27,989 nt of DNA from Candidatus Latescibacterota bacterium. GTDB taxonomy: Bacteria > JAAXHH01 > JACQVL01. The notes below the pieces were generated by a model. The model was not told the DNA's origin and made no database searches. It was given only the letters and a program-made list of their open reading frames with translations. The stretch's first letter is position 1, and every line of letters starts with the position of its first letter. Below, in pieces: positions 3,985 through 27,964 of this stretch. The stretch covers positions 1-27,989 of the forward strand of contig JACQVL010000251.1 of assembly GCA_016209865.1 (NCBI GenBank), given 5' to 3'. The position numbers and the translations under genes were made by a program.

Positions 3985-4563
3985 TTACGCGAACACCTCC
4001 GCTACCGTCAGCGTCAGTTCGGGCAGCACCTCAGACCGGACGGATTGTCCCATGCCGAACACGGCGACGGTTTCCATCTTCTCAGAAGAAAGACGCAAGA
4101 CCTCGACCGTCTGCGTTTCCGGGCTGACCAGCCAGGATTCAAGTACGCCGATACTCCGATAATCCGCCAATTTCTCTTCGATATCCAGCCGGGTTTCGGT
4201 CGGGGATAGAATCTCGACGACAAGATCGGGAGGGACGGTGATGATGGGCATCTGCCGCAGGCCTTCCCGTCCGGTGATTCCGGTCCGCGCCGCGCTCAGG
4301 AAGAGGACATCCGGCTGGCGGACTCGTAGCGGATCACGCCGGATGAGGACGTCGACGGGGGCATAGAGCACAACGCCTAACTTGTGGGGTTCGACATGAT
4401 CTTGTAACGCTCGTGCAATACGAAAGGAAATCCACTGATGATCCGATGTTGGCGCTGGTGACATGATCATCTCCCCATCGATGATATCATACCGTTGCAC
4501 TGTCTCTGGCGAGGCGAGATACTCCTCGTACGTCATTCGCTGGATGGTTGACATCGTGGCCAT
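3985..4563 (-). CDS. Uma2 family (DUF820) nuclease-like protein inside the formate dehydrogenase operon
   Basis: This is a 192-residue Uma2/DUF820 protein. 'MTYEEYLASPE' at 10-20 is the family's start signature. The PD-(D/E)XK-like residues are D85 (RQPDVLFLS), E117 (DLVVEILSPTE) and K131, followed by 'GVLESWLV' at 139-146. I chose ATG 4563 over the longer frame at 4590 because AAGGAGG precedes it by six bases and because the longer frame would overlap the upstream gene. The gene starts 11 bp after the stop of the NuoEF-like subunit, and its TAA directly abuts the ATG of fdhA. It is thus wedged between two subunits of one enzyme and is surely co-transcribed with them. No enzymatic link to formate oxidation is known to me, so the placement may be an insertion of a mobile Uma2 gene. 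Confidence 0.9.
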   Translation of the reverse strand: MATMSTIQRMTYEEYLASPETVQRYDIIDGEMIMSPAPTSDHQWISFRIARALQDHVEPHKLGVVLYAPVDVLIRRDPLRVRQPDVLFLSAARTGITGREGLRQMPIITVPPDLVVEILSPTETRLDIEEKLADYRSIGVLESWLVSPETQTVEVLRLSSEKMETVAVFGMGQSVRSEVLPELTLTVAEVFA

Positions 4564-4574
4564 AGTAGACCTCC

Positions 4575-6239
4575 TTATTCCCGAAAACACACGCCCGACG
4601 GGCAGCGTCGCTTCGTGATATGGTCGTACACTTCATCCGGAAAATACTTCAGCACGGACGTGACGGGCAGCGGAGCCGCCTGGCCGAGGCCGCAGATCGA
4701 GGTCAGCGCCATCGTCTCGGCTAAATCGGCCACCGGGTCGAGCAGATCGGGCGTCCCCTCGCCGCGACTGACGCGGTCGAGCAGAGTGACGAGTTGCTGG
4801 GAGCCGGTCCGGCAGGGGACGCATTTACCGCACGATTCGTTCCGGAAGAACGTCGCGACGTTCTTCGCTAAGTCGAGCATGCACGTCCCGTCCGCGACCG
4901 CCACGACCGCGCCGGAGCCGAGCATCGACCCGGCCTTCGCCAGCGCCCCGAAGTCTAAGGGGATGTCCGCCATCGACGCGGGAAGAAAACCGGACGAGGC
5001 TCCGCCTGGAGCGAATGCTTTGAGTGTGAGACCATCCAACATGCCCCCACCGTAGGAGGCGATCAGATCGGCGACCGTCGTGCCGAGCGGGATCTCGTAC
5101 ACGCCGGGCCGGCGGACGTGGCCGCTGAGGGCGATGTACTTCAACCCGGATGCCCCGTTGACCCCGCGTCCCTTGAACCATGCCGCGCCACGGCGCAGGA
5201 TGGAGGGCACCCAGGCGAACGTCTCCACGTTGTTGATGAGGGTCGGTTTGCCGTACAGCCCGTGCGTACCGGGGAACGGCGGCTTGTTCCGGGGCTCGGC
5301 TCGCTTCCCTTCGAGCGCTTCGAGGAGCGCCGTCTCTTCCCCGCAGATGTACCCGCCGGGGCTGTCAAAGATTTCCAGATGGAAGGTATGGTCTGTGCCG
5401 AGGAGACGATCTCCGAGGAGGCGATCCCGGTAGCACTGTTTGATTGTCCGCCCTACAATCTCCCGCTCCCGGTCGTACTCATGCCGGAGAAAAATGTACC
5501 CCTTCGTCGCCCCGGAGACGAGCGCGCCGAGGATGATGCCTTCGACGACGAGATGGGGGGCTGTCCGCAGGAGTTCCCGGTCCTTGCACGTGCCCGGCTC
5601 GCTCTCGTCCGCATTGCAGATGACATATTTGATATCGGCGGGTGTCTTCCGGACGAGATCCCATTTCATCCCCGCCGGGAAGCCCGCTCCGCCCATCCCC
5701 CGCAGTCCGCTCTCTTTGAGGGCAGCGATGACGCTCTCCGGGTCTCCAGACTGCACGAATTGAGTCAGGCCCTCATACCGACTCTCTCCGTCGTACGGGT
5801 CGATCTCCCCTGTGCTCTGTGGGCGTCGCAACCCCTGACGCCGGAGCGGCCGCCCTTCGGCCAGGGTTTCGACCTGCCGGGCCAGACTGTCTAAGGTGAC
5901 CCGGCCATAACTCCGGCCGTTGATGGCGACGGCGGGCGCGCCGTCACACTGGCCCAGACACGATGTCTCTCCCACCACCCAGCCGTCCAGCCCAGCCCGC
6001 TCGACCGTTTCCCGTACAGTGGCCAGCACGTCGTACGCGCCCCGGAGATGGCAGGAGACGTCCGCGCAGACGCGGATGTCGACGGGGGGCGGGGGTTCAA
6101 GCCGGAAATGGGGGTAGAAGCTGGCGACCCCGTGAATCTCGTAGAGCGGGGTGTTCGTCCGCTCGGCGAGGGCGTGCAACTCCTCCGCCGGGAGGTACCC
6201 GTGGCGGTGCTGGATGGCCTTGAGTTGGTCGATGAGCAT
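4575..6239 (-). CDS. fdhB: Formate dehydrogenase NADH-side subunit, NuoE-NuoF fusion
   Basis: This 554-residue flavoprotein should pass electrons from the alpha subunit to NAD+ through FMN. Residues 1-130 are a NuoE-like thioredoxin-fold [2Fe-2S] domain with ligands C58, C63, C94 and C98. Residues 155-554 are NuoF-like. The FMN/NADH-binding loops are 'GLRGMGGAGFPAG' (178-190) and 'ICNADESEPGT' (207-217). The terminal [4Fe-4S] ligands are C470, C473 and C476 in CGKCVPC, and C516. HoxF and some FDH beta subunits have the same fused layout. It is the first gene of the operon, followed by Uma2 and fdhA. An in-frame TGA lies two codons before the ATG, in the edge of a heptad array, so no longer start exists. 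No clear Shine-Dalgarno is visible, and the NuoE helix region is short compared with free NuoE. Confidence 0.92.
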   Translation of the reverse strand: MLIDQLKAIQHRHGYLPAEELHALAERTNTPLYEIHGVASFYPHFRLEPPPPVDIRVCADVSCHLRGAYDVLATVRETVERAGLDGWVVGETSCLGQCDGAPAVAINGRSYGRVTLDSLARQVETLAEGRPLRRQGLRRPQSTGEIDPYDGESRYEGLTQFVQSGDPESVIAALKESGLRGMGGAGFPAGMKWDLVRKTPADIKYVICNADESEPGTCKDRELLRTAPHLVVEGIILGALVSGATKGYIFLRHEYDREREIVGRTIKQCYRDRLLGDRLLGTDHTFHLEIFDSPGGYICGEETALLEALEGKRAEPRNKPPFPGTHGLYGKPTLINNVETFAWVPSILRRGAAWFKGRGVNGASGLKYIALSGHVRRPGVYEIPLGTTVADLIASYGGGMLDGLTLKAFAPGGASSGFLPASMADIPLDFGALAKAGSMLGSGAVVAVADGTCMLDLAKNVATFFRNESCGKCVPCRTGSQQLVTLLDRVSRGEGTPDLLDPVADLAETMALTSICGLGQAAPLPVTSVLKYFPDEVYDHITKRRCPSGVCFRE

Positions 6240-14034: not shown

Positions 14035-17000
14035 TCACTTCACCAACACCATCTTCCGCACCCGCGTGAACACTTCCCGCCCGGTGACCGCATCCCGCAC
14101 GACAATCCGGTAGAAGTACACCCCCGTTCCAACCTGTCGTCCTGTCTCGTTCCGGCCATTCCATTCGATGGCGTAGAACCCGGCCTGGTGCGGTTGATCG
14201 TTGAGGAGCATCCGCACCGCCTGGCCGAGGAGGTTGTACACGATGATCGTCACCGACCCCGGCCGTGGGAGGGCATAGCGAATCCGGGTCGTCGGGTTGA
14301 ACGGGTTGGGATAGTTCTGCGCGAGGGCGAACGCGCCCGGCACGCGACTCCCCGCCGTCGCGTCAACGGACACCGGCTTGCTCGCTTTGGCGGTCAAACT
14401 CTGGGCCGACGACCAGGCACCGTCGAACGTCCCGTCGTTCGCCCGCGCCCGCCACCAGTAGCGCACCCCGTCCTGAAGGGCGACACTGTCCGAGACCGCC
14501 TGGTCGATCACCTGCCAGTGCGTCGGGTTGGTCGAAGTGCCCTGAGGAATGCCCGATGTGGAAGTCACGAGCTGAGTCAGGAGGGAATCCGTGTAGACGG
14601 CGAACGTGTAGGCGAGCGTCCCGCCGCTCGTCCCGGGTGTCGCATCGCTGATGACTAAGATGGGCTTCCGGGAGACTTCGGCGTTGTCTGCCGGGGACGC
14701 TGGTCCCGGCGCAGACGGCGCATTCGCCGTCGCGGGCGTGGCAGAGACGGTGCTCGACGCTGTGCTGGTGTTAGGCGTCGGCAGTGCGTGATCCACCGCC
14801 TTGATAGAATACGTGTACACCGTCCCGTTCGTCACCGCATTGTCAAGGTACGTCGTGTCCGTGATCCCCGACTGCACCTGCGCCGTGACTCCGCTCACCG
14901 TCCGGAAGACCTCGTACCCGGCCAGATCGGTTTCCGTGTTCCGGCTCCACCGGAGCCGCACCGCGCCATTCCCGGCGATCGCCGTCAGGTTGGCGGGCGC
15001 GGCGGGCGGGGTGACGTCCTGAGTGGCGAGTGTCGTCAGCGGCTGCGACGAGCTCGTCGCGGTGTTGCCCGTCGGGTCGGTCGAGCCGACGAGCACGCTG
15101 TAGGAGATCGCCCCCGCCTGAAGGAACGTCGTGTCGGTCACGGTCAGCGCATGGGTGGTGACGTTCGTCGCGGATGCGACGGTCAGGGTATCGTTCGCCC
15201 CGGTGATGACGTGCACGAAGCTGTTCGACGGCTCATCCGTCGTCCACGAGAGCGACGCGGAGCGATAGCCAGGCTGGATGACGATCCCGCTGATCGCCGG
15301 CGGCGTGGCGTCGGCGGTCGAGGTGGTCGTGAACGACGACGTGCTGCTCAGGCGCGGGCCGTTGCCGCTGACGTCCGTCGATTTGACCCGGAAAGAGTAC
15401 CCGATCCCTGCGGTCAAGTTCGTCAGCGTCACACTGTGGGAGGTGCTCAGCGCCGTCGTCCCTAACGTCTGGTTGAGGCTGGTGGAACTCGTCCCGAAAT
15501 CGACGAAGCTGTCGGACAGTTCGTCCGTCGTCCACGTGATGACCGCCCGGTCGTTCGTGACCGACGAGACCGTCACCCCGCTGATGACGGGCGGGGTCAC
15601 GTCCGCTTCCGTGGCGGTCGTGGCCGAGGCGATGAGCGTAGGCAGCGGCCCCTGCGTCGGCCCGTTCCCGGTCGGGTCGGTCGAGCTGATCCGGTAACTG
15701 TAGATCGTCCCCGCCGCCAGGTTGGTGATCGTGACGGTATGCGCCGTGACGTTATCCGGGACGGTCGTCACCTGCCCGAACGCGGCCGTCGTCCCGTATT
15801 CGATGATGCTGTTGCAGAGCTCGTCCGTCACCCAGGAGATCGTCAACGCGGCCGACGTCTGGGCGATGATCGTGGGACCGGAGAGCAGCACCGGCGCCTG
15901 GGTATCCGGCTGCGGGTTCGTCGTGAACCGGCCGGTCGACCCCGGCACCTGGAGGACGCGGAAGAGCGCCCGTGACTCGGCTAAGGCGCTGATCTGCTTC
16001 AGGGTCAGACCGGACGGCGGGAACGTCCGGGAATTCCCGCTCGCATCCGTGGCGGTGACGAGGAACCGGTAGGGGGCGCCCAAGTTGAGGTTGGTCAGGG
16101 CGATGCGATGGTTGACGACGTTGGCGTCGCCGAACACCGTCGTGATGTTCGTCAGGTCGTTCGCCGGCGCGGCGTCGACCCGGATGGTCGCCGGTTCGTC
16201 GGTGGTGACGAGGACGACGACGACCGACCCGCCGTTATACCCGATGATCGGCCCCTCGACGAAGACGGGCGGGAGGCTGTCGACGGCGGTCGTCGTGAAC
16301 GTCCGACGCCGGCTCTCCGACCGGTTCCCGGCCTGGTCCCGCGACTGCACCCGGTACTCGTACGTGATCCCGCCAAGCAGGTTCGTCAAGACGAACTGGT
16401 GATTGGTCACGAACTCGGTGTCGAGCCGCCTCGTCGTGTCCGCGCTGCCGACCGCGTTGTAGAGGATTTCGGTGTCAGACGGCTCATCCGTCTCGTAGAC
16501 GATGGTGGCGCGAGCGGCGGTGGCGGCCAGCACCGCCGGACCTCGAACGATGCCCGGCGGGATGGTGTCCGCGAACGCCGGAGTGGTGAACGACTGGAAC
16601 GGGGTGATCCGCTGGTTGTTGCTCGGGTCGACGAACCGCACCCGGAAGAAGTATTGAGTATTCGAGGACAGCCCGGTCAGCGGAATCCGGTGACGGGTGA
16701 CGGGGAACGCCGCGCCCTGCACCTCTGTCGTCGTCAGGGTGCTGTCGAGCGCCACGTACTGGACGTAACCGAACGCGATCTCGTCCGTCGTGGCAACGAT
16801 GAGCGCGCTCGTCTGCGTCAGCCCGACGACCGCCGGGAATTCGACGAGCCGGGGCGGGATGGTATCCGCCACCCGCCGCGTGCGAAACGCGCGAGGTGTG
16901 GACGCGGACGGGAAGAACTTCGCGGCATTCCCGCTGATGTCGGTCGCGCCGACCCGGAAGTAGTAGGTCATATCCGGCACCAGGCCCGTCAGGGTGATCC

Positions 17001-18615
17001 GGTGGAGGCGAGACGGGCTGGACTCGTTCGTCGTGTTGACCGTGTCCACCGTCCCGGCCGTCAGGCCAATGCCCACGCGCCCGGTGGACAGTTCGTCCGT
17101 CTCGAACACGATCGTCGCCGCGCTGTCCGTGATCCCGATCGCGCCCGGCCCGGAGACGATAACCGGAGCGACCACGTCACTCCCCGCTAAGGTGGCGAAC
17201 GACGCGACGGCGGAGCTGTCGCGGTTGTCGACCGCATCCTTCACGAAGGCCCGGAAGAGATACGCGGTATTCGCCGTCAGCCCGGTGAGCGTCACCCGGC
17301 GGTCGCGGGCGAGGACGGTATCCGTGATCGTCGTCCCCAGGCTGGGTGACGTACCGTAATGGAGAGCGGCGCGATGGGGTTCGTCGGTGGAGAACTCGAT
17401 GATGGCTGAGGTGCTCGTTGCCCCGACGAGCGCGGGGCGGCGGACGAAGACGGGGGGTTTCGCGTCGACCGCGAACAGGTCGGCGGCCACTCTGAACGCG
17501 ATATTCCCCGACGGGTCCCGGAGCTGGCCACGCACGGCCGCTTTCGGAGCCTCATCCCCTCGGGCGATGACATACCTTCCCGTGTACGTTCCCGACCCGG
17601 CCGAGGTCTCTGCCATCGGGACGTTCTGCACGAGCCCGACGAGGGCGAAACTGGCCGCCATGTTCGACGTGCCAGTGAGGACGACCTGAATCGTATCCCC
17701 GATCCCTTTCACCGGGCCGCCGGTTGCCGAGAAGTTCACGGACGTGATCACCGGGGGGATGGTATCGATCACCGCGCCCGGACTGCCTTCGTTGAGCGTA
17801 AAGCTCTCAAACCGGAGGTTGAGCGGGCCGGGGTTGGCGACGTCAAACCGGACCCCGACAAGCGGCCCGCTGCCGGCGAACGGGCTGGACTTCGCCGCGG
17901 CGACCCGCACCCGTCCGGGACTGAGGAGGTTGAAGGTATCGGTCGCCGCTTCGCTCAGCGTCCCGGGCTTGGCCGTTCCGACCGCCGTCGCCCGGAGCGC
18001 GTTGTACTGGAGGACAAAACTGTAGCTCAGGACGTTGAGACCTGTCAGATTATTGACGACGATCGGGACGGCCAGCGGCACGCCCGCGATGCCCTGGATG
18101 TTCGTGATGCCCCCAACCCGGACGGGGACGGAGAACGTCCCGTTTGTGGGGGTCGCGGCCGGGGTGCCTTCATTAAACCGGAAGGTCGTGAAACTGAGCG
18201 ACGTGACGACGGTATCGGCGAGGGTCGGGGAGACGGTGAACGGGATTTCGACGAACGGGCCTTTGCCCGTCGCTGGCGTGATGCCCGCGGCGGCGACGAT
18301 GAGCGTCCCCGGGCTCGTCGCGTTGGCGGTCGGCAGGCTGAACCCGCTCCCCAGCGTCCCGACGGATTGCGCCTGGATGCCGCCCGTCGGGTTGGGGATG
18401 GGCGTCAGGACAGCCGGGTCGTACGTCATCGTGAACTGGTACGCGAACACACTGTCCGCCGCTACGACCGTGTCGAGCGCCGCGACCTGCACTGTGATCC
18501 GGCTCCCCGGATTGCCCGAGGCGTCGTTGATCTTCACCCGGATCACGGCCTGGGCAGACACGACCGCGAGCATGACGAGCGCAAGGCTCAACCCCAATGT
18601 GCGCATCAGTCTCAA
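14035..18615 (-). CDS. Giant secreted protein: two cohesins, eight TDE Ig/FN3-like repeats, FN3, FlgD-like sorting domain
   Basis: The 1526-residue product starts at TTG 18615, with AAGGAG eight bases upstream; a later ATG at 18606 is too far from that site. A signal peptide covers about 1-23. Two cohesin-like beta-sandwiches follow (about 24-165 and 168-283; 'YDPAVL' at 65-70, 'FNEG' and 'LNEG' near their ends). An Ig-like unit lies at 285-383. Eight repeats of about 95-125 residues (384-1198) each open with 'D-x-x-PP/AP' and carry 'TDE'. FN3 is at 1199-1294, and a further FN3-like unit with 'YWWRARANDG' follows. The C-terminal 100 residues contain 'NYPNPFNPTTRIRYALP' and 'YNLLGQAVRML', the FlgD Ig-like domain used as a type-IX (type A-like) sorting signal in FCB bacteria. 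No dockerin is present, unlike its three neighbours, so it could act as a scaffold or receptor partner. Confidence 0.85.
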   Translation of the reverse strand: MRLMRTLGLSLALVMLAVVSAQAVIRVKINDASGNPGSRITVQVAALDTVVAADSVFAYQFTMTYDPAVLTPIPNPTGGIQAQSVGTLGSGFSLPTANATSPGTLIVAAAGITPATGKGPFVEIPFTVSPTLADTVVTSLSFTTFRFNEGTPAATPTNGTFSVPVRVGGITNIQGIAGVPLAVPIVVNNLTGLNVLSYSFVLQYNALRATAVGTAKPGTLSEAATDTFNLLSPGRVRVAAAKSSPFAGSGPLVGVRFDVANPGPLNLRFESFTLNEGSPGAVIDTIPPVITSVNFSATGGPVKGIGDTIQVVLTGTSNMAASFALVGLVQNVPMAETSAGSGTYTGRYVIARGDEAPKAAVRGQLRDPSGNIAFRVAADLFAVDAKPPVFVRRPALVGATSTSAIIEFSTDEPHRAALHYGTSPSLGTTITDTVLARDRRVTLTGLTANTAYLFRAFVKDAVDNRDSSAVASFATLAGSDVVAPVIVSGPGAIGITDSAATIVFETDELSTGRVGIGLTAGTVDTVNTTNESSPSRLHRITLTGLVPDMTYYFRVGATDISGNAAKFFPSASTPRAFRTRRVADTIPPRLVEFPAVVGLTQTSALIVATTDEIAFGYVQYVALDSTLTTTEVQGAAFPVTRHRIPLTGLSSNTQYFFRVRFVDPSNNQRITPFQSFTTPAFADTIPPGIVRGPAVLAATAARATIVYETDEPSDTEILYNAVGSADTTRRLDTEFVTNHQFVLTNLLGGITYEYRVQSRDQAGNRSESRRRTFTTTAVDSLPPVFVEGPIIGYNGGSVVVVLVTTDEPATIRVDAAPANDLTNITTVFGDANVVNHRIALTNLNLGAPYRFLVTATDASGNSRTFPPSGLTLKQISALAESRALFRVLQVPGSTGRFTTNPQPDTQAPVLLSGPTIIAQTSAALTISWVTDELCNSIIEYGTTAAFGQVTTVPDNVTAHTVTITNLAAGTIYSYRISSTDPTGNGPTQGPLPTLIASATTATEADVTPPVISGVTVSSVTNDRAVITWTTDELSDSFVDFGTSSTSLNQTLGTTALSTSHSVTLTNLTAGIGYSFRVKSTDVSGNGPRLSSTSSFTTTSTADATPPAISGIVIQPGYRSASLSWTTDEPSNSFVHVITGANDTLTVASATNVTTHALTVTDTTFLQAGAISYSVLVGSTDPTGNTATSSSQPLTTLATQDVTPPAAPANLTAIAGNGAVRLRWSRNTETDLAGYEVFRTVSGVTAQVQSGITDTTYLDNAVTNGTVYTYSIKAVDHALPTPNTSTASSTVSATPATANAPSAPGPASPADNAEVSRKPILVISDATPGTSGGTLAYTFAVYTDSLLTQLVTSTSGIPQGTSTNPTHWQVIDQAVSDSVALQDGVRYWWRARANDGTFDGAWSSAQSLTAKASKPVSVDATAGSRVPGAFALAQNYPNPFNPTTRIRYALPRPGSVTIIVYNLLGQAVRMLLNDQPHQAGFYAIEWNGRNETGRQVGTGVYFYRIVVRDAVTGREVFTRVRKMVLVK
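14734..17466 (-). repeat. Eight tandem TDE Ig/FN3-like repeats plus one FN3 domain
   Basis: The units begin at residues 384, 479, 583, 682, 778, 903, 1003 and 1101, with canonical FN3 from 1199. Each has the core pattern hydrophobic-x-hydrophobic-x-TDE-(P/L/I), a 'hydrophobic-T-(G/N)-L' turn and a 'Y-x-(F/Y)-R-V-x-x-x-D' strand. The DNA copies are diverged, so this is an old expansion rather than a recent tandem duplication. Similar modules precede the catalytic domain in purple acid phosphatases, but no enzyme domain is present here. Confidence 0.8.
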
Positions 18616-18650
18616 GATGGTGACTCCTTACTCACGTTACACCTGGTGTC

Positions 18651-18734
18651 ATTCCCGCCCCCGCTTTCGCGGGGGGAAACTCCATCGGGAATCCCTGCTC
18701 TTTACTCGTCACTCGCCACTTGTCACTCGTCACT
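18651..18734. repeat. Composite repeat: palindrome plus CGTCACT array
   Basis: The region holds a palindrome CCCCCGC-TTTC-GCGGGGG (18658-18675) within a diverged ATTCCCGC context. CTCTTTACT follows, and then four heptads (CGTCACT, CGCCACT, TGTCACT, CGTCACT; 18707-18734). The array stops one base before the stop codon of the 18736-21858 gene. The unit has the same order as the copies at 12435-12563 and 27906-27964. Confidence 0.8.
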
Positions 18735-18735
18735 A

Positions 18736-21700
18736 TTATTTCAACAGCGTCAGCCGTTTCGTCTGTCGGAACGTTCCGGCGTCGAGCCGGTAGAAATAGA
18801 CCCCACTGGCGGCCGGCTGGCCGCGGCCGTCACGCCCGTCCCACGTGACCGTGTAGAACCCGGCGGGCTGCGTCTCGTCCACCAGGACGCGCACCGCCTG
18901 GCCGAGGACGTTGTAGAGGACGAGCCGGACGGCCACCGGCTTCGGGAGGGCGTACGCGATCGTCGTCGTCGGGTTGAACGGGTTCGGCCGGTTCTGCGAG
19001 AGCGAGAACGCTTTCGGGATCAGGGCGGTTGCCTTGCCGACGACGAACTCGGCGGACGTGCCGGGCATGTCCAGTTCGTTCACCGCGAACCGTTCGACGG
19101 TCAGCGGGCTGCGGCCGCCGTCCCGGCCGATGACGCGGAAGGAGAGCGCGACGAGATCCCCCTCCTCGTTCAGTGGTGCAGTTCCGGCTAAGGCCAGATG
19201 GATGCGTCCTTCTTTGTGTGAATACGCTAACTCATACCGGGCGGTCAGACCCGTCCGTGCCGCGTCGATCAACTCCAGCACCGCCGGGTCGTACCGGAAG
19301 ACGAGGTCGGCGCCGAAGAGGTTCGCCGTCTTCTGGACGCGGATGGGGATCGTCACCCGCTCGCCAGGCTGGCCCGCACGATCCTGGACGGCCGCGACCG
19401 CCGCGCCGGGAATGACTTTCGGCACGGCAAGCTGGCGGACGGGGAACGTGTCGACCTGCTTCGTCAGGTACCGGAGAATCAACGACACGTCGAGCGGACC
19501 GACGATTCCGTTCCCGCTCACGTCCGCCAACAGCCGCTGGATGGGGGACAGCGTCAGCACCTCGGCGGTGTGCCGGAGGGCGAGCGAGGCGTCGAACGCG
19601 GAGATGCCGCCCTGCATCGTGACGTCCCCGAAGATGCTATCCGGGTTCGACGGGAAGTTTTTGAGTTTCTGCAATTCCGCATTACTCATCCCGGCGTACA
19701 AGACTGGCGGGAGTCCGGTGATGAACCGCGCCTCCGCGATCACTTCGGCTTCGAGCGTCCGCTGCGACTCGATCATCATGTAGATGACCGTATCGTGCGG
19801 GGCGATCGTGACCTGCTTCCAGAAAATTGACGGCTCATCATTCCCTTGCTGGAAATACACACTATCGGCTTTATCCGTCCCGCCCAGTCCATCGAACACG
19901 TGCGCGAGAGCGGCGTCAGAGTCTGTGGGGTCGGACGTGTCTTCATCATCCGTGACGAACCAGAGATAGTCGGCTACGCTGACGTTGGACAGACTGAATG
20001 TGCCCACGCTGATCGAGGTTGCCCGGAGGTTCGTGCTGCTGTCCGAGCCGAGATCGCCGTTGACCTTGAGATCGACCGTGACCGCCGTATCCGCCGGATT
20101 GACGACGATGTTCAGGTACCGGGCGAACCGGCCGCCCTCGTCCGGGACGAACACTTTCCGCGAGATGTGGAGGCCGGCCAGGGTCGAATCGATCGGGAAG
20201 ACAATCTCCCGTCCGTTCTCTTCATAAGCGACCTGGCCGGAACCGTTGTATGTGCGCGACTGCCCATCCTTCATCACGGTAAAGTCATTCCAGTCATCAT
20301 ACGAATCGCTGCTGCCGACGATGATGTTGCCGCCGTCATCGATTGTCCCGTCGGACGTGTTAATATCGTACAGAAATCCCTTCTCATCGACCAGGTTCGT
20401 GCTGAACACGATTACCGTGATCGAATCCCGCGCCGCCTGTCCTACCCGATCCTGTGCTTCCACCACGATGTCGTACCGACCGCCGTAGAGCACGTCCACG
20501 GTCGCGGTGAACGTCGTGTCTGAGGTCAACGTCGCCACGGTCGAATCGACGACGAGTCCGCCGACTTGTTTTGCCCGGACGATCACTTGTTTCAGGTATT
20601 TTTCCAGGACTGTCCCCTGGACGGTGACATTGTTCGCTGCGGTGTCGCCGTCCGCCGGGCTGGTGATGTCCACGACCGGCGAGGTCTGATCGAGGATGAT
20701 GACCGTCGTGTCGGCGGCGGCCAGACTGTCGGTGGCCGTGAACCCCTGCGCCACCACCCGGTTGCTGTCCGGGTTGAGGCTGACGTTGGCCAGGCTGAAC
20801 GTCTTAGCGACGGTATCGAGCACCGCATCCACGAAGGGATTATCACGGACTTGCACTTTCACCTTTTTCACCGTCGTGTCGGGCGCGGTTCCGGTCAGCG
20901 TGATCGGCGTTGTGTTCACGAACTGGGGCGTCGTGATCCCGAACCCCCCCGTACTGGCGAAGATGAGCGCATTGGCAAAGAGACGGGTGACGTTCGGGCT
21001 GGAATAATTCGTTGAATAGCCCATAAAGATCGAGATACCGACCACGGTGCCTGCGGTATTCGTGGCAATGACCTTGTTCCCTGCGGTGTCCCGGGCGAGC
21101 AGGACGGCGTCTTCGTTCAAAGGGGAATCGGTGTAGTTGGAGTTATACTGATAAGTCAGGCTGGACACCCCGTCGAAAATCGGGTGGCCGGTCTGAGCGG
21201 TGGCCATGTCCAGGGTGCCGCTGGGGGATTTCGTAGAAGCCGTGACCTGAAACGGGCTGTAGCCGTTCGTCACGATCCGCCCCTCCAGGCTCCACGGATC
21301 GGAGAACGCATACGTCCCCAGGACGAGTCCGCCGCCGCCGTCCACATAATCCGCCAGAACATTGCCAGTCGCCACCGGGTCTGAGAATTCACTATTCGTC
21401 CAGACGAGCAACACATCGAACGCCTGGAGCTGAGCCAGGGTCGGGGTCGTGCCGTTATCGGTGATGACCGTGATATTCTCTGCCGAGAGGAATCCCGTGG
21501 CCGCCAGCCCGTTCTTTACATCAGACGCACTCCCGCCATCCGACAGCAGCCCAACTTTGATGTTCGACGGGCTGGTCGCCTGCACCGCGTTCGGGGCGAG
21601 TGCTCGCACGAGCGGGCGAATCGGACCGGACGCCGGTGCGTCGGCGGCTGGCGTCATTGGCCGCGTGGCCGCCCCACGCCTCGCTTTGGCTTGTTTCTTC

Positions 21701-21858
21701 GCGCCCGTTTCGGCCAGGGCCGCGCCGCCGACCAGCAACGCCAGGAGGAGCACGCAGGCCAGCCATCGTCCCAAAAGCCTGGATTCCCGCTTTCGCGGGA
21801 ATGACAGTGGGTGGAACGACAAGAATCTGTAGAGGAGTAACATCGAATTTTTTCTCAT
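18736..21858 (-). CDS. Giant secreted protein: GATase-like head, Ig-like units, dockerin, cohesin, FlgD-like sorting domain
   Basis: The product has 1040 residues. I chose ATG 21858 because the paralogue upstream starts in the identical context (catcaacag-ATG-AGA); a longer frame begins at 21891 inside a heptad array. The signal segment (29-49) is preceded by 'SFPRKRESR' encoded by a dispersed palindrome. Residues 99-305 resemble class I glutamine-amidotransferase-like folds, but I see no Cys-His-Glu triad. Two Ig-like units (310-485) lead to a conserved beta-rich module (486-715, 'GFLYDI…DSYDDW…RYLNIVVNP…LGSD'). A two-repeat dockerin follows at 744-806 ('GDVTMQGGISAFDASLALR', 'DVSGNGIVGPLDVSLILRY'). 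A cohesin lies at 828-940 ('FRYDPAVLELI'), and the C-terminal FlgD-like domain at 948-1040 ('NRPNPFNPTTTIAYALP'). Carrying dockerin and cohesin together suggests self-assembly. Confidence 0.85.
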   Translation of the reverse strand: MRKNSMLLLYRFLSFHPLSFPRKRESRLLGRWLACVLLLALLVGGAALAETGAKKQAKARRGAATRPMTPAADAPASGPIRPLVRALAPNAVQATSPSNIKVGLLSDGGSASDVKNGLAATGFLSAENITVITDNGTTPTLAQLQAFDVLLVWTNSEFSDPVATGNVLADYVDGGGGLVLGTYAFSDPWSLEGRIVTNGYSPFQVTASTKSPSGTLDMATAQTGHPIFDGVSSLTYQYNSNYTDSPLNEDAVLLARDTAGNKVIATNTAGTVVGISIFMGYSTNYSSPNVTRLFANALIFASTGGFGITTPQFVNTTPITLTGTAPDTTVKKVKVQVRDNPFVDAVLDTVAKTFSLANVSLNPDSNRVVAQGFTATDSLAAADTTVIILDQTSPVVDITSPADGDTAANNVTVQGTVLEKYLKQVIVRAKQVGGLVVDSTVATLTSDTTFTATVDVLYGGRYDIVVEAQDRVGQAARDSITVIVFSTNLVDEKGFLYDINTSDGTIDDGGNIIVGSSDSYDDWNDFTVMKDGQSRTYNGSGQVAYEENGREIVFPIDSTLAGLHISRKVFVPDEGGRFARYLNIVVNPADTAVTVDLKVNGDLGSDSSTNLRATSISVGTFSLSNVSVADYLWFVTDDEDTSDPTDSDAALAHVFDGLGGTDKADSVYFQQGNDEPSIFWKQVTIAPHDTVIYMMIESQRTLEAEVIAEARFITGLPPVLYAGMSNAELQKLKNFPSNPDSIFGDVTMQGGISAFDASLALRHTAEVLTLSPIQRLLADVSGNGIVGPLDVSLILRYLTKQVDTFPVRQLAVPKVIPGAAVAAVQDRAGQPGERVTIPIRVQKTANLFGADLVFRYDPAVLELIDAARTGLTARYELAYSHKEGRIHLALAGTAPLNEEGDLVALSFRVIGRDGGRSPLTVERFAVNELDMPGTSAEFVVGKATALIPKAFSLSQNRPNPFNPTTTIAYALPKPVAVRLVLYNVLGQAVRVLVDETQPAGFYTVTWDGRDGRGQPAASGVYFYRLDAGTFRQTKRLTLLK
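21783..21802. repeat. Dispersed palindrome ATTCCCGC-TTTC-GCGGGAAT
   Basis: A perfect 8-bp stem with a TTTC loop, lying inside the signal-peptide region of the 18736-21858 gene. On the coding strand it contributes 'SFPRKRES', a translation seen wherever this common palindrome is read in this frame. Confidence 0.9.
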
Positions 21859-21867
21859 CTGTTGATG

Positions 21868-21888
21868 TTCCCGAACCCCGTACCCCGT
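21868..21888. repeat. Heptad array (TTCCCGA, ACCCCGT x2) between two giant genes
   Basis: The three heptads fill the 29-bp gap between the stop of the 21888-24995 gene and the ATG at 21858. The last heptad ends on the first base (plus-strand reading) of the stop codon. In the sense direction it is G-rich, with three G runs. Confidence 0.85.
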
Positions 21889-24800
21889 CATTTTATCAGT
21901 ACCATCTTTCTCGTCGCCGTAAACGGTTCCCGGCCGGTCACGACGAGCCGGTAGAAATACACCCCGCCCGCGACCGGCACGCCTGTCGCCGCCCGCCCGT
22001 TCCAGCGGACCGTGTAGATTCCAGCCTCTTGCGGGCCGTCGACGAGCGTCGTGACGACCTGGCCGAGGAGGTTGTAGACCCGGAGGATCACGTGACCTTG
22101 CGCCTTCAGGGCGTAGCGGATGGTCGTCGCCGAGTTGAACGGGTTGGGACGGTTCTGGTCGAGCGCGAAGGCGGTCGGGATCGCCGCCGCCCCCACCCGG
22201 AGCGGGATGTCGACATCGGGCATCCGCGTCTCATTGAGCCGGAGGCCGGCGACCGTGACCGTCCCCCGCGTCCCGTCCGGCCCGACGGCGCGGAAGATGA
22301 CCTCGATCAGCCGGCCTTCCCCGCCGACCGGCCGCACTCCGGCCATCGCCACCCGCACGACGCCATCTTTCGCGCTCGACGCGATGTCCCAGCCATCGAT
22401 CAGGGCCGACGGGATGACGTTCACGAATTCCAGGACGGCCGGATCGTACTTGATCATAAAATTCATCGCCAGGAGGTCCGCCGGTTTCTTGATGGAGACG
22501 GGCACGGTGACGAGCCCACCCGGCTCGACGGTGAGCACCGGGATGTCTTCCACGACTCCACCGCCCGCGATCGGCTTCGGACTCGCCTGACGGACGGGGA
22601 AGATGGAGATCGCCCGGCTGACGTACTTGAGGATGAGCGAGGCGTCGTACGCGCTCAGTTCCCCGTTCCCGCTGACTTCTCCGGCGATCTGCTGGAGCGG
22701 GGTGAGGGTGACGAGCTCGACTAAGCCGCGCAGGACGAGCGAGGCGTCGAACGCGGTCACCTGCCGGTTGCCGCTCACGTCCCCGATCGCGCTGTCCGGG
22801 TTCGTCGGGAAATTCCGGAGGGCGGCGATCTCCCCGGCGGTCAGGCCGGTGTACAGTTTGGTGGGCAGTCCGGCCAGTTGGCGAGCCGCCGTGACCCCTT
22901 CATCCGGCAGGCCGCGCTGGGCCTCGACGTGCAGGTACGCGACCGTCTGCCCCGGCCCGATGGTGACGTTATTCCAGTAGATCGTCAGATTAGTATCATC
23001 TTCTTCAAACTCAACGCTATCGGCCTTATCGATCCCGCCAAGCCCGTCGAACACGTGCGCGAGCGCCGGAGGATTATTCGTATCTGAGAACGAATAGTCA
23101 TCGTCCGTCACGAACCAGAGATAGTTGGCTACGCTGACGTTGGACAGGCTGAATGTGCCCACGCTTATTGACGTCGCCCGCGTGAAGGAATCGTTCTCTA
23201 AATATCCCTGCAGGGCGAGATGGACGGTGAGCGGGTCGCTCGTCGGGTTCGTGACGATACTGAGATACCGGAGGAAGCTCGTCTCCGGCACCCAGACCTT
23301 CCGGGAGACGACGAGGCCGTTCGACAGCGTGTCTGGAGGGAAAATGAGGGTACGGCCATCTTCTGAGTAGGCGACGGTGTCGCCGGGCGTCGGATTATTG
23401 TATTCCTCATAATCATTATTAAAGTAGATTTGGAGCCTGCCCCATCCATCATAACTCGTATAAGTGTTCGTGATAATGTTCCGGCCTTCGTTGATCTCCC
23501 CGTTATTCGTATCGATCCCGTACAGGAATCCCTGGCTATCGACGAGGTTCGGGCTGAAGACGACGAGAGTGATCGAGTCATGGGCCGCCAATCCGACCCG
23601 ATCGTAGGCCACGGCCTCGATCGTCAACCGGCCGTTGAAATCATCGATCGTGATCGTCGCGGTAAACGTGGTGTCTGTGTCCAGTGTGGCGGTCGTCGAA
23701 TCGATGACCCCGCCCTCGATCCCGCTGATCTTCTGCCGGATGACCACCCGATCCCGGTATTGATCCCGCGCGATCCCCTGCACGGTCACGTTGAACGCTG
23801 AGGTCAGGCGGAGCGTATCCCCGCCCGCCGGGCTGGTGATGTCCACGACCGGCGGAGTCTGATCGAGGATGACGACCGTCGTATCGGCGGCGACCAGACT
23901 ATCATTCGCCGTGAACCCCTGCGCGACCACCCGGTTGCTGTCCGGGTTGAGGCTGACGTTGGCCAGGCTGAACGTCCGGGCGACGGTATCGAGCACCGCA
24001 TCCACGAACGGGTCGGTGCGGACCTGGACTTTGACTTTCGTGATTGTCGTGTCGGCCGTCGTCCCGGTGACGGTGATGGGGGTGGTGCTGGTGAACGCAG
24101 GAGTGGTGAGTTTGAATCGTTTGATGGCGAGGGAGTATTCGATCAGATTACGATGCGGATCGCCACTCGCTCCACCGGTGCCCCACCCATACGTCAACGT
24201 CGTGACGATGACTTGCCCGCTCCCATAACGATATTGGACCCAGGAAGGACCATTTGAGTTCTGGAGGACGACCTCAGCATCGACCGGAAACCCGGAGAGC
24301 GTGCCGTGGTCGGTGGAAGACCAGCTATTAAAGTTCGTCGTGGAGAGCGCGGCACCTCCGTAAGGAACGCCTGTGATATACGGATGGGAGGGCAGGAGAA
24401 TGCTTTCACTATTATGTGTGGTCGCTCGGCTGTAATCCACCCCGCCCGGCGCGATGTCCGTCCCGTTGCCGATGTTCCCGGCGATGTTGATGACGGCAGT
24501 CCCGCCGTTCTGGACGTACGTCGTCAGCGCCGCCATCGCGTTCGTGAGGTTGGTGTAGCTCCCCCAGCTCGGCTCCATGTAGACCACTTTGAACGGCGCC
24601 AGGTCGCTTGCCGTCGCTGTACTCAACTGGGATTCCGAAATGAGGGTGCGAGTATGGCTGCCAAACTGTGTCTGGTTTCTGGAGTGATTGACGATCAGGA
24701 ATTCTGCGGGCGTGAACGCGGTCGCCTGCAACGGACGGGTGCTCACGTGGGGCGCCGGTTCTGAGTCGGTGGATGGCGCGGTCACGACCGGCCGCGTGAT

Positions 24801-24995
24801 GTCACGCCGGGCAGAGCGGCGCATCCGGGCCTGTTCGGCGGCGGCAGTATCCGACGGAGTCGCCCATCCGGCCAGCAGCCCCAGGAGCAGCACGACGGCG
24901 GTCAGCCCTATTCCAGGCCGACTGGATTCCCGCTTTCGCGGGAATGACAGAATGGGGGACATAAAACAGAAGGGTAACATCGAGCCTCTTCTCAT
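21888..24995 (-). CDS. Giant secreted protein: GATase-like (DUF4350-like) head, Ig-like units, dockerin, cohesin, FlgD-like sorting domain
   Basis: The product has 1035 residues and is a paralogue of the downstream gene. ATG 24995 has AGGAA nine bases upstream, and no other start codon exists back to the stop of the preceding gene in the same frame. A hydrophobic signal segment lies at 29-46, preceded by 'SFPRKRESS' from the palindrome. Residues 97-293 form a Rossmann-like / GATase-like head ('APFKVVYMEPSWGSY', 'YVQNGGTAVINIAG') that differs from that of the downstream paralogue. From residue 299 on the two align: Ig-like units (299-480), the beta-rich module (481-707), a dockerin at 738-800 ('GDVSGNRQVTAFDASLVLR', 'EVSGNGELSAYDASLILKY'), a cohesin at 823-935 ('IKYDPAVLEFV') and a FlgD-like end ('NRPNPFNSATTIRYAL', 'YNLLGQVVTTLV'). 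Confidence 0.85.
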   Translation of the reverse strand: MRRGSMLPFCFMSPILSFPRKRESSRPGIGLTAVVLLLGLLAGWATPSDTAAAEQARMRRSARRDITRPVVTAPSTDSEPAPHVSTRPLQATAFTPAEFLIVNHSRNQTQFGSHTRTLISESQLSTATASDLAPFKVVYMEPSWGSYTNLTNAMAALTTYVQNGGTAVINIAGNIGNGTDIAPGGVDYSRATTHNSESILLPSHPYITGVPYGGAALSTTNFNSWSSTDHGTLSGFPVDAEVVLQNSNGPSWVQYRYGSGQVIVTTLTYGWGTGGASGDPHRNLIEYSLAIKRFKLTTPAFTSTTPITVTGTTADTTITKVKVQVRTDPFVDAVLDTVARTFSLANVSLNPDSNRVVAQGFTANDSLVAADTTVVILDQTPPVVDITSPAGGDTLRLTSAFNVTVQGIARDQYRDRVVIRQKISGIEGGVIDSTTATLDTDTTFTATITIDDFNGRLTIEAVAYDRVGLAAHDSITLVVFSPNLVDSQGFLYGIDTNNGEINEGRNIITNTYTSYDGWGRLQIYFNNDYEEYNNPTPGDTVAYSEDGRTLIFPPDTLSNGLVVSRKVWVPETSFLRYLSIVTNPTSDPLTVHLALQGYLENDSFTRATSISVGTFSLSNVSVANYLWFVTDDDYSFSDTNNPPALAHVFDGLGGIDKADSVEFEEDDTNLTIYWNNVTIGPGQTVAYLHVEAQRGLPDEGVTAARQLAGLPTKLYTGLTAGEIAALRNFPTNPDSAIGDVSGNRQVTAFDASLVLRGLVELVTLTPLQQIAGEVSGNGELSAYDASLILKYVSRAISIFPVRQASPKPIAGGGVVEDIPVLTVEPGGLVTVPVSIKKPADLLAMNFMIKYDPAVLEFVNVIPSALIDGWDIASSAKDGVVRVAMAGVRPVGGEGRLIEVIFRAVGPDGTRGTVTVAGLRLNETRMPDVDIPLRVGAAAIPTAFALDQNRPNPFNSATTIRYALKAQGHVILRVYNLLGQVVTTLVDGPQEAGIYTVRWNGRAATGVPVAGGVYFYRLVVTGREPFTATRKMVLIK
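24926..24945. repeat. Dispersed palindrome ATTCCCGC-TTTC-GCGGGAAT
   Basis: Identical to the copies at 21783-21802 and 27906-27925. Like the first of those, it is inside the signal-peptide coding region, here of the 21888-24995 gene, and it encodes 'SFPRKRES'. Confidence 0.9.
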
Positions 24996-25004
24996 CTGTT
25001 GATG

Positions 25005-25032
25005 TTCCTGAACCCCGAATCCCGAACCCCGT
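25005..25032. repeat. Heptad array (TTCCTGA, ACCCCGA, ATCCCGA, ACCCCGT) between two giant genes
   Basis: Four imperfect heptads occupy almost the whole gap between the stop of the 25032-27743 gene and the ATG at 24995, ending on the stop codon. In the sense direction they are G-rich. The layout is the same as at 21868-21888. Confidence 0.88.
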
Positions 25033-27743
25033 TATTTTATCAGTATCATCTTTCTCGTCGCCAGAAAAGGCTCGCGGCCGGTCACCTGAAGCTGGTAGAA
25101 ATACACCCCGCCCGCCAAGGCCGCGCCCGTCGTCGTCCGTCCGTTCCAGCGCGCGGTGTAGACGCCCGCCTCCTGCGGCCCGTCGACGAGCGTCGTGACG
25201 ACCTGGCCAAGGAGGTTGTAGACCCGGAGGGTCACGTGTCCCCGCTCTTTCAGCGCATAGCGGATGGCCGTCGCCGGGTTGAACGGGTTGGGCACGTTCT
25301 GGTCGAGCGCGAACGCCGACGGGATCACCCGCTGGACGACGACCTCGCCCGTCCCGGTCTGGACGGCCGCTTCGTTCGCGTGGAAGCGGTCAAACGATAG
25401 GGACGATCGAGCGCCCGGAGCACCGACGACGTCGAAGACGACCTGCACCAGCTCCCCGGACCCCGGCAGCGGGGCTGTCCCCGCGCTGGCGACGCGCACC
25501 GCGCCGGCGGGGTCAGCATGCACGACGAGCTGCGCGCCCGCCGGGAGGCTACCCCGAACGACCTCGACGAACCGGAGCGCGGCCGGGTCGTACCGGAGGG
25601 TGAACCCGATCGCCCGCACATCCCGCCCTTCCGACAGCGTAACGGGCACGGTCACCCGGTCGCCGGGACTCGCCCGGAGAGCGGGCAACGCCACGCTCGG
25701 CCCGCGGCCATCCGGCAGCGGCTTTGAGGTTCCCTGAACCGGAAAGGTCGAGATCTGGCCGACGACGAACTGGAGGATGAGCGCCGCATCGAACGCGGTC
25801 ACCGCGCCGTTCCCGCTCACGTCCCCGGTCGTCGTCTGTTCCTGCGTGAGCGACCGGAGACCGACATCCGTCTGGAGGGCGGCCGAGGCATCGAGCGCCG
25901 ACACGCTGCCGTCGAGGGTGATGTCCCCGAACGCCCCGGCCGCCACCCGGAACGTCCCGTTGGTGATGACGGCGGTCGGGTTGTTTTCGTTGAAGAGCAC
26001 GTCGCTCAACGTCAAGGGGGTAGAATCGTTCGAGTTGGCGGTCGCGCTCACCCGGAACCGGATTTTGAGCAGGATGCCGTCGCTCGCCAGGGCCAAGACC
26101 CGCGCGACGGTGACTCGGATTTTCCCGGCGCCGATAGACGGGTTGACCTCGATCCCGCTGCCCTGCGTCAGCGTCCCGTCCAGGACGACGGTCGGGTCGG
26201 TCAGCAGGCCGCTCGTCCCGTAGTCAACGGTACAACTATAGGAATAAATGCTGGTCGCGTTGGCGACCCCGCTGATCTGGACAGGAATCGTGACGGTCGC
26301 GTTCGGACGGCTGAACAGGGTGGGAATGGACACCGCCACTGAGGTGAGTCCGATCCCGGCCAGGGGGATGCTCGTCGGGCCGCCCGGGGCGTTGTGCTGG
26401 AGCGACAAACTGGCCGCCTTCGTCCCGCCCGACGTCGGCGTGAACCCCACCGTGACATTCTGGCTCCCGCCCGCCGCCACGTTCAGGTTCGCCGGGGAGA
26501 CGGAGAACTGCCCGGAATCGGGCCCGGACAGGCTGAGGCTGGACACGGTGAGGGGGACGAAACTGGAGTTCGTGACCGTCACCGTCCGGTTCGCCGTCTG
26601 GCCGACGCTGAGGTTGCCGAAATCAACGGCGGCAGGGGAGAGGGAAAGCGCGGCGACGGCGGTCACCTTTCGGACGCGGTGGTTGCCCGTATCCGAGATG
26701 TAGAAATTTCCGGTTCCATCGACGGCGACATCAAGGGGGTTGTCCAGCTTCGCTGCGGTGGCAGGGCCGTCATCCCCGGAGAACCCTTCATCGCCAGTAC
26801 CGGCAACCGTCGTGATGATCCCGGTGGGATCCACCTTCCGGACGCGATGGCCGTCCCATTCCGCGATGTAGAGGTTTCCCATGCTATCCCGAAACATACT
26901 GGTCGGGCCACTCAGGACGGCGGCACGGGCGGGGCCGCCATCCCCGGGGGAATTCGGTCCGCCGCCGGCGATCGTCGTGATGATCTGCGTGGCCGCGTCC
27001 ACCTTCCGAACGCGGTTGTTGTTATAATCCGAGATGTAGAGATTCCCCGGCCCGTCTGAAAAGATGCCTTCGGGGTTGTTTAAGCTGGCGGCGGTGGCCG
27101 GACCGCCGTCCCCGGAGAAGCTGGCCGTCCCGTTGCCAGCGACGGTCGTGATGATCCCGTTGGGAGCCACTTTCCGGATGCGGTGGCCATCCCATTCTGA
27201 GATGTAGAGGTTCCCGGCGCTATCCCCGTACACCGTGATCGGGCCGTTCAGACTGGCGACCGTAGCCAGGCTGTCATCCCCGGCGGAGCTCTTCGTCCCG
27301 TTCCCGGCGACGGTCGTGATGACCCCGTTGGTATCCACCTTTCGGATGCGGTTGTTGTAGTAATCCGGGATGTAGAGATTCCCTGCCCCATCCTTGAACA
27401 CGTTGGCATACCACAGTTTCAGGCTGGCGGCAGTGGCCGGGCCGTCATCTCCGGAGAAGCTCGCGGTTCCGTTCCCGGCGACGGTCGTGATCACCCCGTT
27501 GGTGTCCACCTTTCGGATGCGGTTATTGCGATAATCCCCGATGTAGAGGTTTCCCGCGCTATCCACAAAGATGCCGCTCGGGCTGTACAGGCTGGCGGCG
27601 GTGGCCGGGCCGTCATCCCCGGAGAAGCTCGCGGTCCCGTTCCCGGCGACGGTCGTGATCGTGCCGGGCGCCTGGGCCCAGCCGGGCACCGTCAGGCTCA
27701 GGAGGATGAGGAGGGTGAGGGGAAGCCACAACAGGCGGGTCAT
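25032..27743 (-). CDS. Giant secreted protein: six-bladed NHL propeller, choice-of-anchor-like domain, cohesin, dockerin, cohesin, FlgD-like sorting domain
   Basis: The product has 903 residues from ATG 27743, which has GAGGAA nine bases upstream; the longer frame to 27797 lacks this and would precede the signal peptide (about 1-23, ending 'GWAQA'). Residues 27-362 are six NHL-type blades, each with 'GNLYI-x-D/E…R-(I/V)-RKV' and 'ITTVAGNGT'. Residues 365-465 match ASPM/HYDIN or choice-of-anchor D modules ('VDFGNLSVGQTANRTVTVTN'). Cohesin 1 lies at 468-602 ('FNENNPTAVITNGTF'). A dockerin follows at 605-668 ('GDITLDGSVSALDAS', 'GDVSGNGAVTAFDAALILQF'). Cohesin 2 is at 690-805 ('LRYDPAALRFV'). 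The FlgD-like end (807-903) carries 'NVPNPFNPATAIRYAL'. Two cohesins around one dockerin make it a possible branching unit. It is the first gene of the four and has a recognisable promoter. Confidence 0.87.
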   Translation of the reverse strand: MTRLLWLPLTLLILLSLTVPGWAQAPGTITTVAGNGTASFSGDDGPATAASLYSPSGIFVDSAGNLYIGDYRNNRIRKVDTNGVITTVAGNGTASFSGDDGPATAASLKLWYANVFKDGAGNLYIPDYYNNRIRKVDTNGVITTVAGNGTKSSAGDDSLATVASLNGPITVYGDSAGNLYISEWDGHRIRKVAPNGIITTVAGNGTASFSGDGGPATAASLNNPEGIFSDGPGNLYISDYNNNRVRKVDAATQIITTIAGGGPNSPGDGGPARAAVLSGPTSMFRDSMGNLYIAEWDGHRVRKVDPTGIITTVAGTGDEGFSGDDGPATAAKLDNPLDVAVDGTGNFYISDTGNHRVRKVTAVAALSLSPAAVDFGNLSVGQTANRTVTVTNSSFVPLTVSSLSLSGPDSGQFSVSPANLNVAAGGSQNVTVGFTPTSGGTKAASLSLQHNAPGGPTSIPLAGIGLTSVAVSIPTLFSRPNATVTIPVQISGVANATSIYSYSCTVDYGTSGLLTDPTVVLDGTLTQGSGIEVNPSIGAGKIRVTVARVLALASDGILLKIRFRVSATANSNDSTPLTLSDVLFNENNPTAVITNGTFRVAAGAFGDITLDGSVSALDASAALQTDVGLRSLTQEQTTTGDVSGNGAVTAFDAALILQFVVGQISTFPVQGTSKPLPDGRGPSVALPALRASPGDRVTVPVTLSEGRDVRAIGFTLRYDPAALRFVEVVRGSLPAGAQLVVHADPAGAVRVASAGTAPLPGSGELVQVVFDVVGAPGARSSLSFDRFHANEAAVQTGTGEVVVQRVIPSAFALDQNVPNPFNPATAIRYALKERGHVTLRVYNLLGQVVTTLVDGPQEAGVYTARWNGRTTTGAALAGGVYFYQLQVTGREPFLATRKMILIK
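26658..27665 (-). repeat. Six tandem NHL repeats of about 168 bp
   Basis: Six units of about 54-58 codons encode the propeller blades. Blades 1, 2 and 4 retain very similar DNA around 'VAGNGTASFSGDDGPATAASL', and blades 3 and 5 share 'EWDGHR'. The alternation suggests past duplication of a two-blade unit. Confidence 0.85.
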
Positions 27744-27814
27744 TCTGGACAATTCCTCAGATCTCATCAGATGAAAACCGATCACAGAGGCGAACACAGT
27801 CTACTGTAAGAGCA

Positions 27815-27844
27815 ATAATAAAACAAGATGATTTTCTGAGTCAA
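27815..27844 (-). promoter_or_regulatory. Sigma-70-like promoter for the giant-protein cluster
   Basis: On the minus strand, TTGACT (27844-27839) and TATTAT (27820-27815) are separated by 18 bases. Each box matches the consensus at five of six positions. The local sequence is conspicuously AT-rich for this window. The -10 box lies about 70 bp upstream of the 27743 start codon, in the only AT-rich stretch before the cluster. Confidence 0.5.
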
Positions 27845-27873: not shown

Positions 27874-27964
27874 GGTCGGTGGTCGGTTAAAACCAGGCCG
27901 ACTGGATTCCCGCTTTCGCGGGAATGACACCCTCTGATTTACTCGTCACTTGTCACTCGTCACT
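27874..27964. repeat. Composite repeat: GGTCGGT x2, palindrome, CGTCACT array
   Basis: GGTCGGT occurs twice (27874-27887), followed by TTAAAAC. The perfect palindrome ATTCCCGC-TTTC-GCGGGAAT is at 27906-27925, then CTCTGATTTACT, then three heptads CGTCACT/TGTCACT/CGTCACT (27944-27964). It is the least diverged copy of the composite seen at 12435-12563 and 18651-18734, and lies just upstream of the promoter of the giant-gene cluster. No gene is visible from 27744 to the window end. Confidence 0.82.

Follow-up and report, generated by a model that had tools for sequence, protein, structure and literature searches.

A putative non-cellulosomal cohesin–dockerin system on chains with predicted T9SS export in a Latescibacterota bacterium

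Cellulosomes combine dockerin-bearing plant-cell-wall enzymes with a scaffoldin that holds several cohesins and, usually, a CBM. Modules of both kinds were recognized outside cellulosomes more than 20 years ago and, to our knowledge, still lack a clear role there. In Archaeoglobus fulgidus, the proteins of the non-cellulosomal cohesin–dockerin pair ORF2375/ORF2376, which have consecutive ORF numbers, were reported to bind strongly (PMC9705933). ANME archaea encode chains that combine one dockerin with as many as five cohesins and whose function the source gives as unknown (PMC9012536). For Candidatus Stygibacter (Cloacimonadota), a cellulosome-like complex was proposed, with dockerins on enzymes and cohesins on a scaffoldin of 3,755 aa (PMC8542988). 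According to these papers, non-cellulosomal modules, chains with both modules and surface-attaching C-terminal domains are already known, each separately (PMC9012536, PMC8542988, PMC9705933). A literature search over titles, abstracts and passages, with few subscription papers, returned no description of a dockerin-cohesin-T9SS tail as a unit, of two matched classes per genome, or of a swap of the block.

The window, the whole stretch of 27,989 nucleotides analyzed here, is the entire contig C206 of a MAG (3.75 Mb, 83% complete). Like A. fulgidus, it has a dockerin ORF beside a cohesin ORF with the cohesin near the N-terminus (residues 29-162 in A. fulgidus) and no cellulolysis. It differs in that the A. 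fulgidus pair is archaeal and its binding was measured, whereas that of the window pair is predicted, and in that neither a T9SS sorting domain nor a genome-wide tail is reported in the accessible text (PMC9705933). As in ANME, dockerin and cohesins share one chain in a non-cellulolytic setting; unlike those of the window, the ANME proteins are archaeal and have ABC-transporter binding protein or S-layer partner domains, and the passages available describe no T9SS and no matched classes (PMC9012536). Stygibacter shares with the window an FCB-type host and, on its dockerin and cohesin proteins, a C-terminal domain for surface attachment; however, it has enzymes and a scaffoldin (PMC8542988), neither of which was found in the MAG. 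The clostridial (type I) cellulosome has in common with the window the module families, the cohesin fold and the two-repeat, near-symmetric dockerin. In contrast to that system, no enzymes, CBM or multi-cohesin scaffoldin were found in the MAG, and dockerin and cohesin share a chain beside the T9SS domain.

Positions 14035-27797 of the window are filled by four minus-strand ORFs, with the transcription order P0004, P0003, P0002, P0001. P0003 and P0002 overlap by 4 bp, and gaps of 36 bp and 120 bp separate P0004 from P0003 and P0002 from P0001, respectively. The features are as follows.

27815-27844, minus strand: sigma-70-like promoter match, 10/12 consensus positions, just upstream of P0004 (consensus match alone)
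25032-27797, minus strand: P0004, 921 aa
about 26658-27665, minus strand: P0004 NHL propeller (Pfam/NCBIfam)
26385-26648, minus strand: P0004 ASH domain (Pfam/NCBIfam)
25953-26339, minus strand: P0004 cohesin 1 (PF00963 over cut-off, genome scan)
25773-25928, minus strand: P0004 dockerin (PF00404 over cut-off, genome scan)
25419-25694, minus strand: P0004 cohesin 2 (PF00963 over cut-off; AlphaFold model and structure alignment)
25080-25262, minus strand: P0004 T9SS sorting domain (FlgD_ig / TIGR04183)
21888-24995, minus strand: P0003, 1035 aa
22620-22784, minus strand: P0003 dockerin (PF00404 over cut-off; tail alignment)
22281-22538, minus strand: P0003 cohesin (PF00963 over cut-off; tail alignment)
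21939-22124, minus strand: P0003 T9SS sorting domain (FlgD_ig / TIGR04183)
18736-21891, minus strand: P0002, 1051 aa
19465-19629, minus strand: P0002 dockerin (PF00404 over cut-off, genome scan)
19120-19389, minus strand: P0002 cohesin (PF00963 over cut-off, genome scan)
18784-18966, minus strand: P0002 T9SS sorting domain (FlgD_ig / TIGR04183)
14035-18615, minus strand: P0001, 1526 aa
18133-18540 and 17833-18096, minus strand: two N-terminal cohesins of P0001 (PF00963 over cut-off, genome scan)
about 14686-17448, minus strand: P0001 FN3/PAP_N-type repeat array (Pfam/NCBIfam)
14104-14286, minus strand: P0001 T9SS sorting domain (FlgD_ig / TIGR04183)

The sigma-70-like match is a possible promoter of the four-gene run. 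P0003 and P0002 are paralogues with 44% identity. The P0003 body N-terminal to the dockerin has no fold recognized by Pfam/NCBIfam, the N-terminal part of P0002 is weakly ThuA-like (E 0.0018), and the AlphaFold model of the P0003/P0002 body, made from an alignment of two sequences, has a pLDDT of 40. A REP-like palindrome, ATTCCCGC(N4)GCGGGAAT, is located at window positions 21783-21802, 24926-24945 and 27906-27925; the MAG contains 138 copies of it and 0 copies of a control pattern. Two of the copies lie within coding sequence and read SFPRKRES where P0002 and P0003 have their signal peptides, so the start codons or N-terminal regions of these two proteins may have been shaped by the element. 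At 1153-6239 of the window, inspection of the translation by eye suggested genes for an NAD-dependent formate dehydrogenase (a large subunit and a NuoE/F-like fusion) on either side of a Uma2-like ORF.

At the curated cut-offs of 24.1 bits for PF00963 and 22.9 bits for PF00404, the genome scan gave six cohesin and three dockerin matches in the window, which assigns the modules to the cohesin and type I dockerin families. A first-pass annotation had assigned to each of the three adjacent minus-strand genes a dockerin of two repeats, together with one or two cohesins and a FlgD-like sorting domain, and to the fourth gene (14035-18615) two cohesins and no dockerin. Pfam and NCBIfam searches agreed with the former, and the PF00963 and PF00404 genome scans with the latter; FlgD_ig matched all four proteins. 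The same annotation had recognized no glycoside hydrolase, CBM or lytic domain, and none exceeded the Pfam/NCBIfam cut-offs on the four proteins. Its description of the proteins as giant is overstated at 921-1526 aa. The P0002 dockerin scored 21.1 bits in a single-protein scan, just below the cut-off, and 26.1 bits in the whole-genome scan; the P0002 cohesin was unlisted in the former and scored 41.5 bits in the latter.

The nearest solved structures by sequence include the dockerins 4uyp and 8x39 and the cohesins 3kcp, 2xdh and 1g1k. Residues 484-921 of P0004 were modelled with AlphaFold, with pLDDT values mostly between 85 and 95 for the dockerin, cohesin 2 and the sorting domain; with a pTM of 0.56 and a low-confidence linker, the model is uninformative on who binds whom. 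The best 50 structure matches listed for the modelled cohesin 2 were all cohesins. The top match was 5nrk_A (Z 16.8, rmsd 1.9, 127 residues), and the A. fulgidus cohesin structure 2xdh has the same fold (Z 16.2). ORF2375 of A. fulgidus presumably also holds a cohesin. Since the nearest solved structures and the matches to the structure model are dockerins and cohesins, the module assignment is not a matter of chance. Profile and structure searches had been named beforehand as a possible refutation of the module families, and both place the modules in them. The Ca2+-ligand positions of the dockerins (1, 3, 5 and 12 of each repeat, read off the sequence) are kept in both repeats in most dockerins of the MAG. 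Weak ligands are Q at position 5 of repeat 1 in P0002 and E at position 1 of repeat 2 in P0003, and an insertion interrupts repeat 1 of the dockerin at two further loci, L017 and L013.

All four sorting domains scored above the TIGR04183 cut-off of 23 bits (31.6, 33.2, 28.6 and 26.0 bits). The MAG contains seven PorV-family genes over the cut-off and two C25 peptidases, one of them in an ORF with FlgD_ig that adjoins a PorV gene, an arrangement like that of PorU-PorV. No match to SprA was obtained in the MAG with two models, which were silent on the controls too. Export of the four proteins by a T9SS is likely.

Twelve dockerin proteins were detected in the MAG, three in the window and the others on contigs C221, C278, C220, C156, C139, C43, C201, C54 and C185. 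All 12 end in a FlgD_ig/T9SS sorting domain, and 11 of them have a C-terminal dockerin-cohesin-sorting domain tail of near-constant length (300-311 residues). Outside the window, the tail cohesin was called by Pfam in C221, C278, C156 and C201 and recognized by alignment in C220, C139, C43 and C54. In the twelfth protein (L015, contig C185, 124-741), most of the second cohesin is deleted with the frame intact, giving a tail of 206 aa versus about 305; this is either a natural deletion or a mis-assembly. The view of the four genes as a special self-contained set was not borne out, as the tail closes 12 proteins (one of them without most of the cohesin) genome-wide and many more in other genomes, and the cluster as a unique invention was rejected on the same count. 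P0001 was the only dockerin-free cohesin chain found in the genome-wide PF00963 scan. In the MAG, at its 83% completeness, none of the 12 dockerin proteins had a catalytic domain over the cut-off; no CBM over the cut-off and no multi-cohesin scaffoldin were found, the maximum being two cohesins per chain. With cohesin and dockerin modules present, often on one chain, and no dockerin-bearing enzyme or scaffoldin found, the MAG conforms to the non-cellulosomal system that had been proposed.

The tail was also found in relatives of the same order (L099, L104 and L106-L119). Neither module was found in the genomes of one genus of this order (ten or more, mostly well assembled), so the tail is dispensable. 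A GTDB scan detected it in Balneolales (L018), Zixibacteria (L019, L046, L054, L082), Cloacimonadota (L022) and others, and in some tails the cohesins are divergent. The Cloacimonadota genome G025, the source of L022, gave 37 matches to a dockerin-cohesin profile of the class termed A below, mostly to the dockerin part. Most of its dockerins are very alike, and in most of the retrieved loci the sorting domain follows ~115 residues downstream.

The dockerins fall into two classes. Those of the window tend to 'D-A-S-L-x-L' in both repeats, the others to 'L-D-I-V-x-x-I-N'. In the dockerin tree, with a support of 100/100, class A comprises the window, L018 (Balneolales), L019 (Zixibacteria) and the Cloacimonadota, and class B the other nine dockerins of the MAG and other relatives. 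A first cohesin tree, built without Cloacimonadota, placed the six cohesins of the window and those of Balneolales on one side (97/95). In an enlarged tree, 16 class-A-context and 21 class-B-context cohesins were split by one branch (95/91; 99/96 without the long Balneolales rows). As predicted beforehand, the Cloacimonadota cohesins joined class A, including those of L150 and L153, ORFs in which no dockerin was seen. As good a split was obtained in 0/500 label shuffles, which is not a probability because the shuffles ignore relatedness. Moving the two P0001 cohesins to the class-B side cost 2.37 log units and was not rejected (AU p 0.137), and their placement in class A is the weak point of the scheme. 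The co-segregation of dockerin and cohesin classes favours a real pairing; because both sit on one chain, they could also be inherited jointly without any need for binding.

Two protein bodies occur in the MAG with either class of block. L017 (C139) and P0003 are 50% identical in the body and 54% in the sorting domain versus 20% in dockerin plus cohesin, with corresponding values for P0002 and P0003 of 47% in the body and 39% in dockerin plus cohesin. L013 (C43) and P0004 share 54% identity in the NHL-ASH body and 52% in the sorting domain versus 25% in dockerin plus cohesin and 17% in cohesin 1. Despite different bodies, L017 and L013 are 60% identical in dockerin plus cohesin. Because bodies and sorting domains are conserved and the block is divergent, the block looks swapped as a unit. 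The swap may be the trace expected from selection for matched recognition, and joint inheritance without binding might also account for it.

A dockerin gene adjoins a cohesin-only gene at no fewer than eight loci (the window, L122, L018, L054, L082, L131, L134 and L150/L152), a recurrence and not a rate because the loci were chosen for holding the tail. L122, from another family of the same order, encodes two such proteins, one of 162 aa with a single cohesin and one with two cohesins at its N-terminus, recognized with a custom profile and not with Pfam. The neighbours at L054 and L082 consist of an N-terminal cohesin, Ig repeats and a sorting domain, and those at L131 and L134 are cohesin-sorting-domain proteins of 277 and 258 aa. 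At L150/L152, a 360-aa two-cohesin protein adjoins an ASH-cohesin-dockerin-sorting domain chain, nearly the order of P0004. On 8 of the 9 dockerin contigs of the MAG outside the window, no cohesin-only neighbour was present in the stretch read. The product of the gene at 14035 had been suggested as an anchor or receptor. With cohesin-only genes beside dockerin genes in several phyla and with P0001 cohesins that group with the window class, P0001 is a likely candidate for the receptor. By analogy with A. fulgidus, the recurrence of the cohesin-only gene beside a dockerin gene would also favour real pairing. As a separate observation, L122 (2655-3140) and L120 (9402-10079) encode small secreted proteins, seemingly a signal peptide plus one cohesin; Pfam calls that of L120 only.

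As to mechanism and ALTERNATIVES, we regard as on balance probable a non-cellulosomal, T9SS-displayed cohesin–dockerin system in which class-A dockerins would clip display chains at the surface. P0004, P0003 and P0002 would be exported by signal peptide and then by the T9SS through the C-terminal domain, each with a class-A dockerin and one or two class-A cohesins just before the sorting domain. P0001 would follow the same route, and a long FN3 stalk would hold out two class-A cohesins at the N-terminus of the mature protein. Each of the other three proteins would plug its dockerin, probably with Ca2+, into the P0001 cohesins and possibly into those of the other two, and the non-catalytic display bodies would thereby be clipped together on the cell surface. 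The self-assembling lattice or fibre that the first-pass annotation had suggested draws no support from these results, and small complexes could form instead. Class-B blocks elsewhere in the genome would lead to a parallel assembly. We infer the secretion route, the binding, its inter-chain direction and the surface location from sequence.

It seems rather unlikely that the modules no longer bind and that the block is a passive spacer between body and sorting domain, spread by recombination. Such a spacer could explain why the tail is so frequent in the Cloacimonadota genome with its 37 matches, wholly absent from ten well-assembled relatives, shortened by the cohesin deletion in L015 and divergent in some of its cohesins, but it leaves aside the Ca-ligand positions retained in most repeats, the classes that match across separate genes and the recurring cohesin-only neighbours. 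These neighbours also bear on pairing in cis, by which the dockerin would dock on the adjacent cohesin of its own chain and form a rigid, Ca-stabilized unit by the sorting domain with no inter-chain assembly: same-class cohesins on dockerin-free genes next to dockerin genes would be unneeded for it. Pairing in cis would fit the constant neighbourhood of dockerin and cohesin 2, the near-constant tail length and the joint exchange of dockerin and cohesin; with the low-confidence linker and whole-chain pTM of the P0004 model also against it, we consider it distinctly unlikely. A cellulosome-like complex with its enzymes lost to gaps in the assembly would resemble the one suggested for a Cloacimonadota genus, in which GH18, GH57 and peptidases bear dockerins and the scaffoldin is large (PMC8542988). 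This reading could draw on the incompleteness of the MAG and is highly improbable given 0/12 dockerin proteins with a catalytic domain and at most two cohesins per chain; a true cellulosome was rejected, as neither of its two components, dockerin-bearing enzymes and scaffoldin, was found.

For the favoured reading, in which chains are clipped together at the surface, a tail with two matched classes, cohesin-only partners and a natural swap provides defined pairs for direct binding tests in this region of the bacterial tree, with negative controls already included (A versus B). Orthogonal cohesin–dockerin pairs would be useful protein fasteners. More tentatively, and at less than even confidence, we propose that in FCB-group bacteria the exchangeable cohesin-dockerin-cohesin block before the T9SS domain may serve as an address tag. 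A swap of the block would then decide which of two surface assemblies, A or B, the same bodies join in one cell, the two assemblies being mutually exclusive and cohesin-only chains acting as the receptors.
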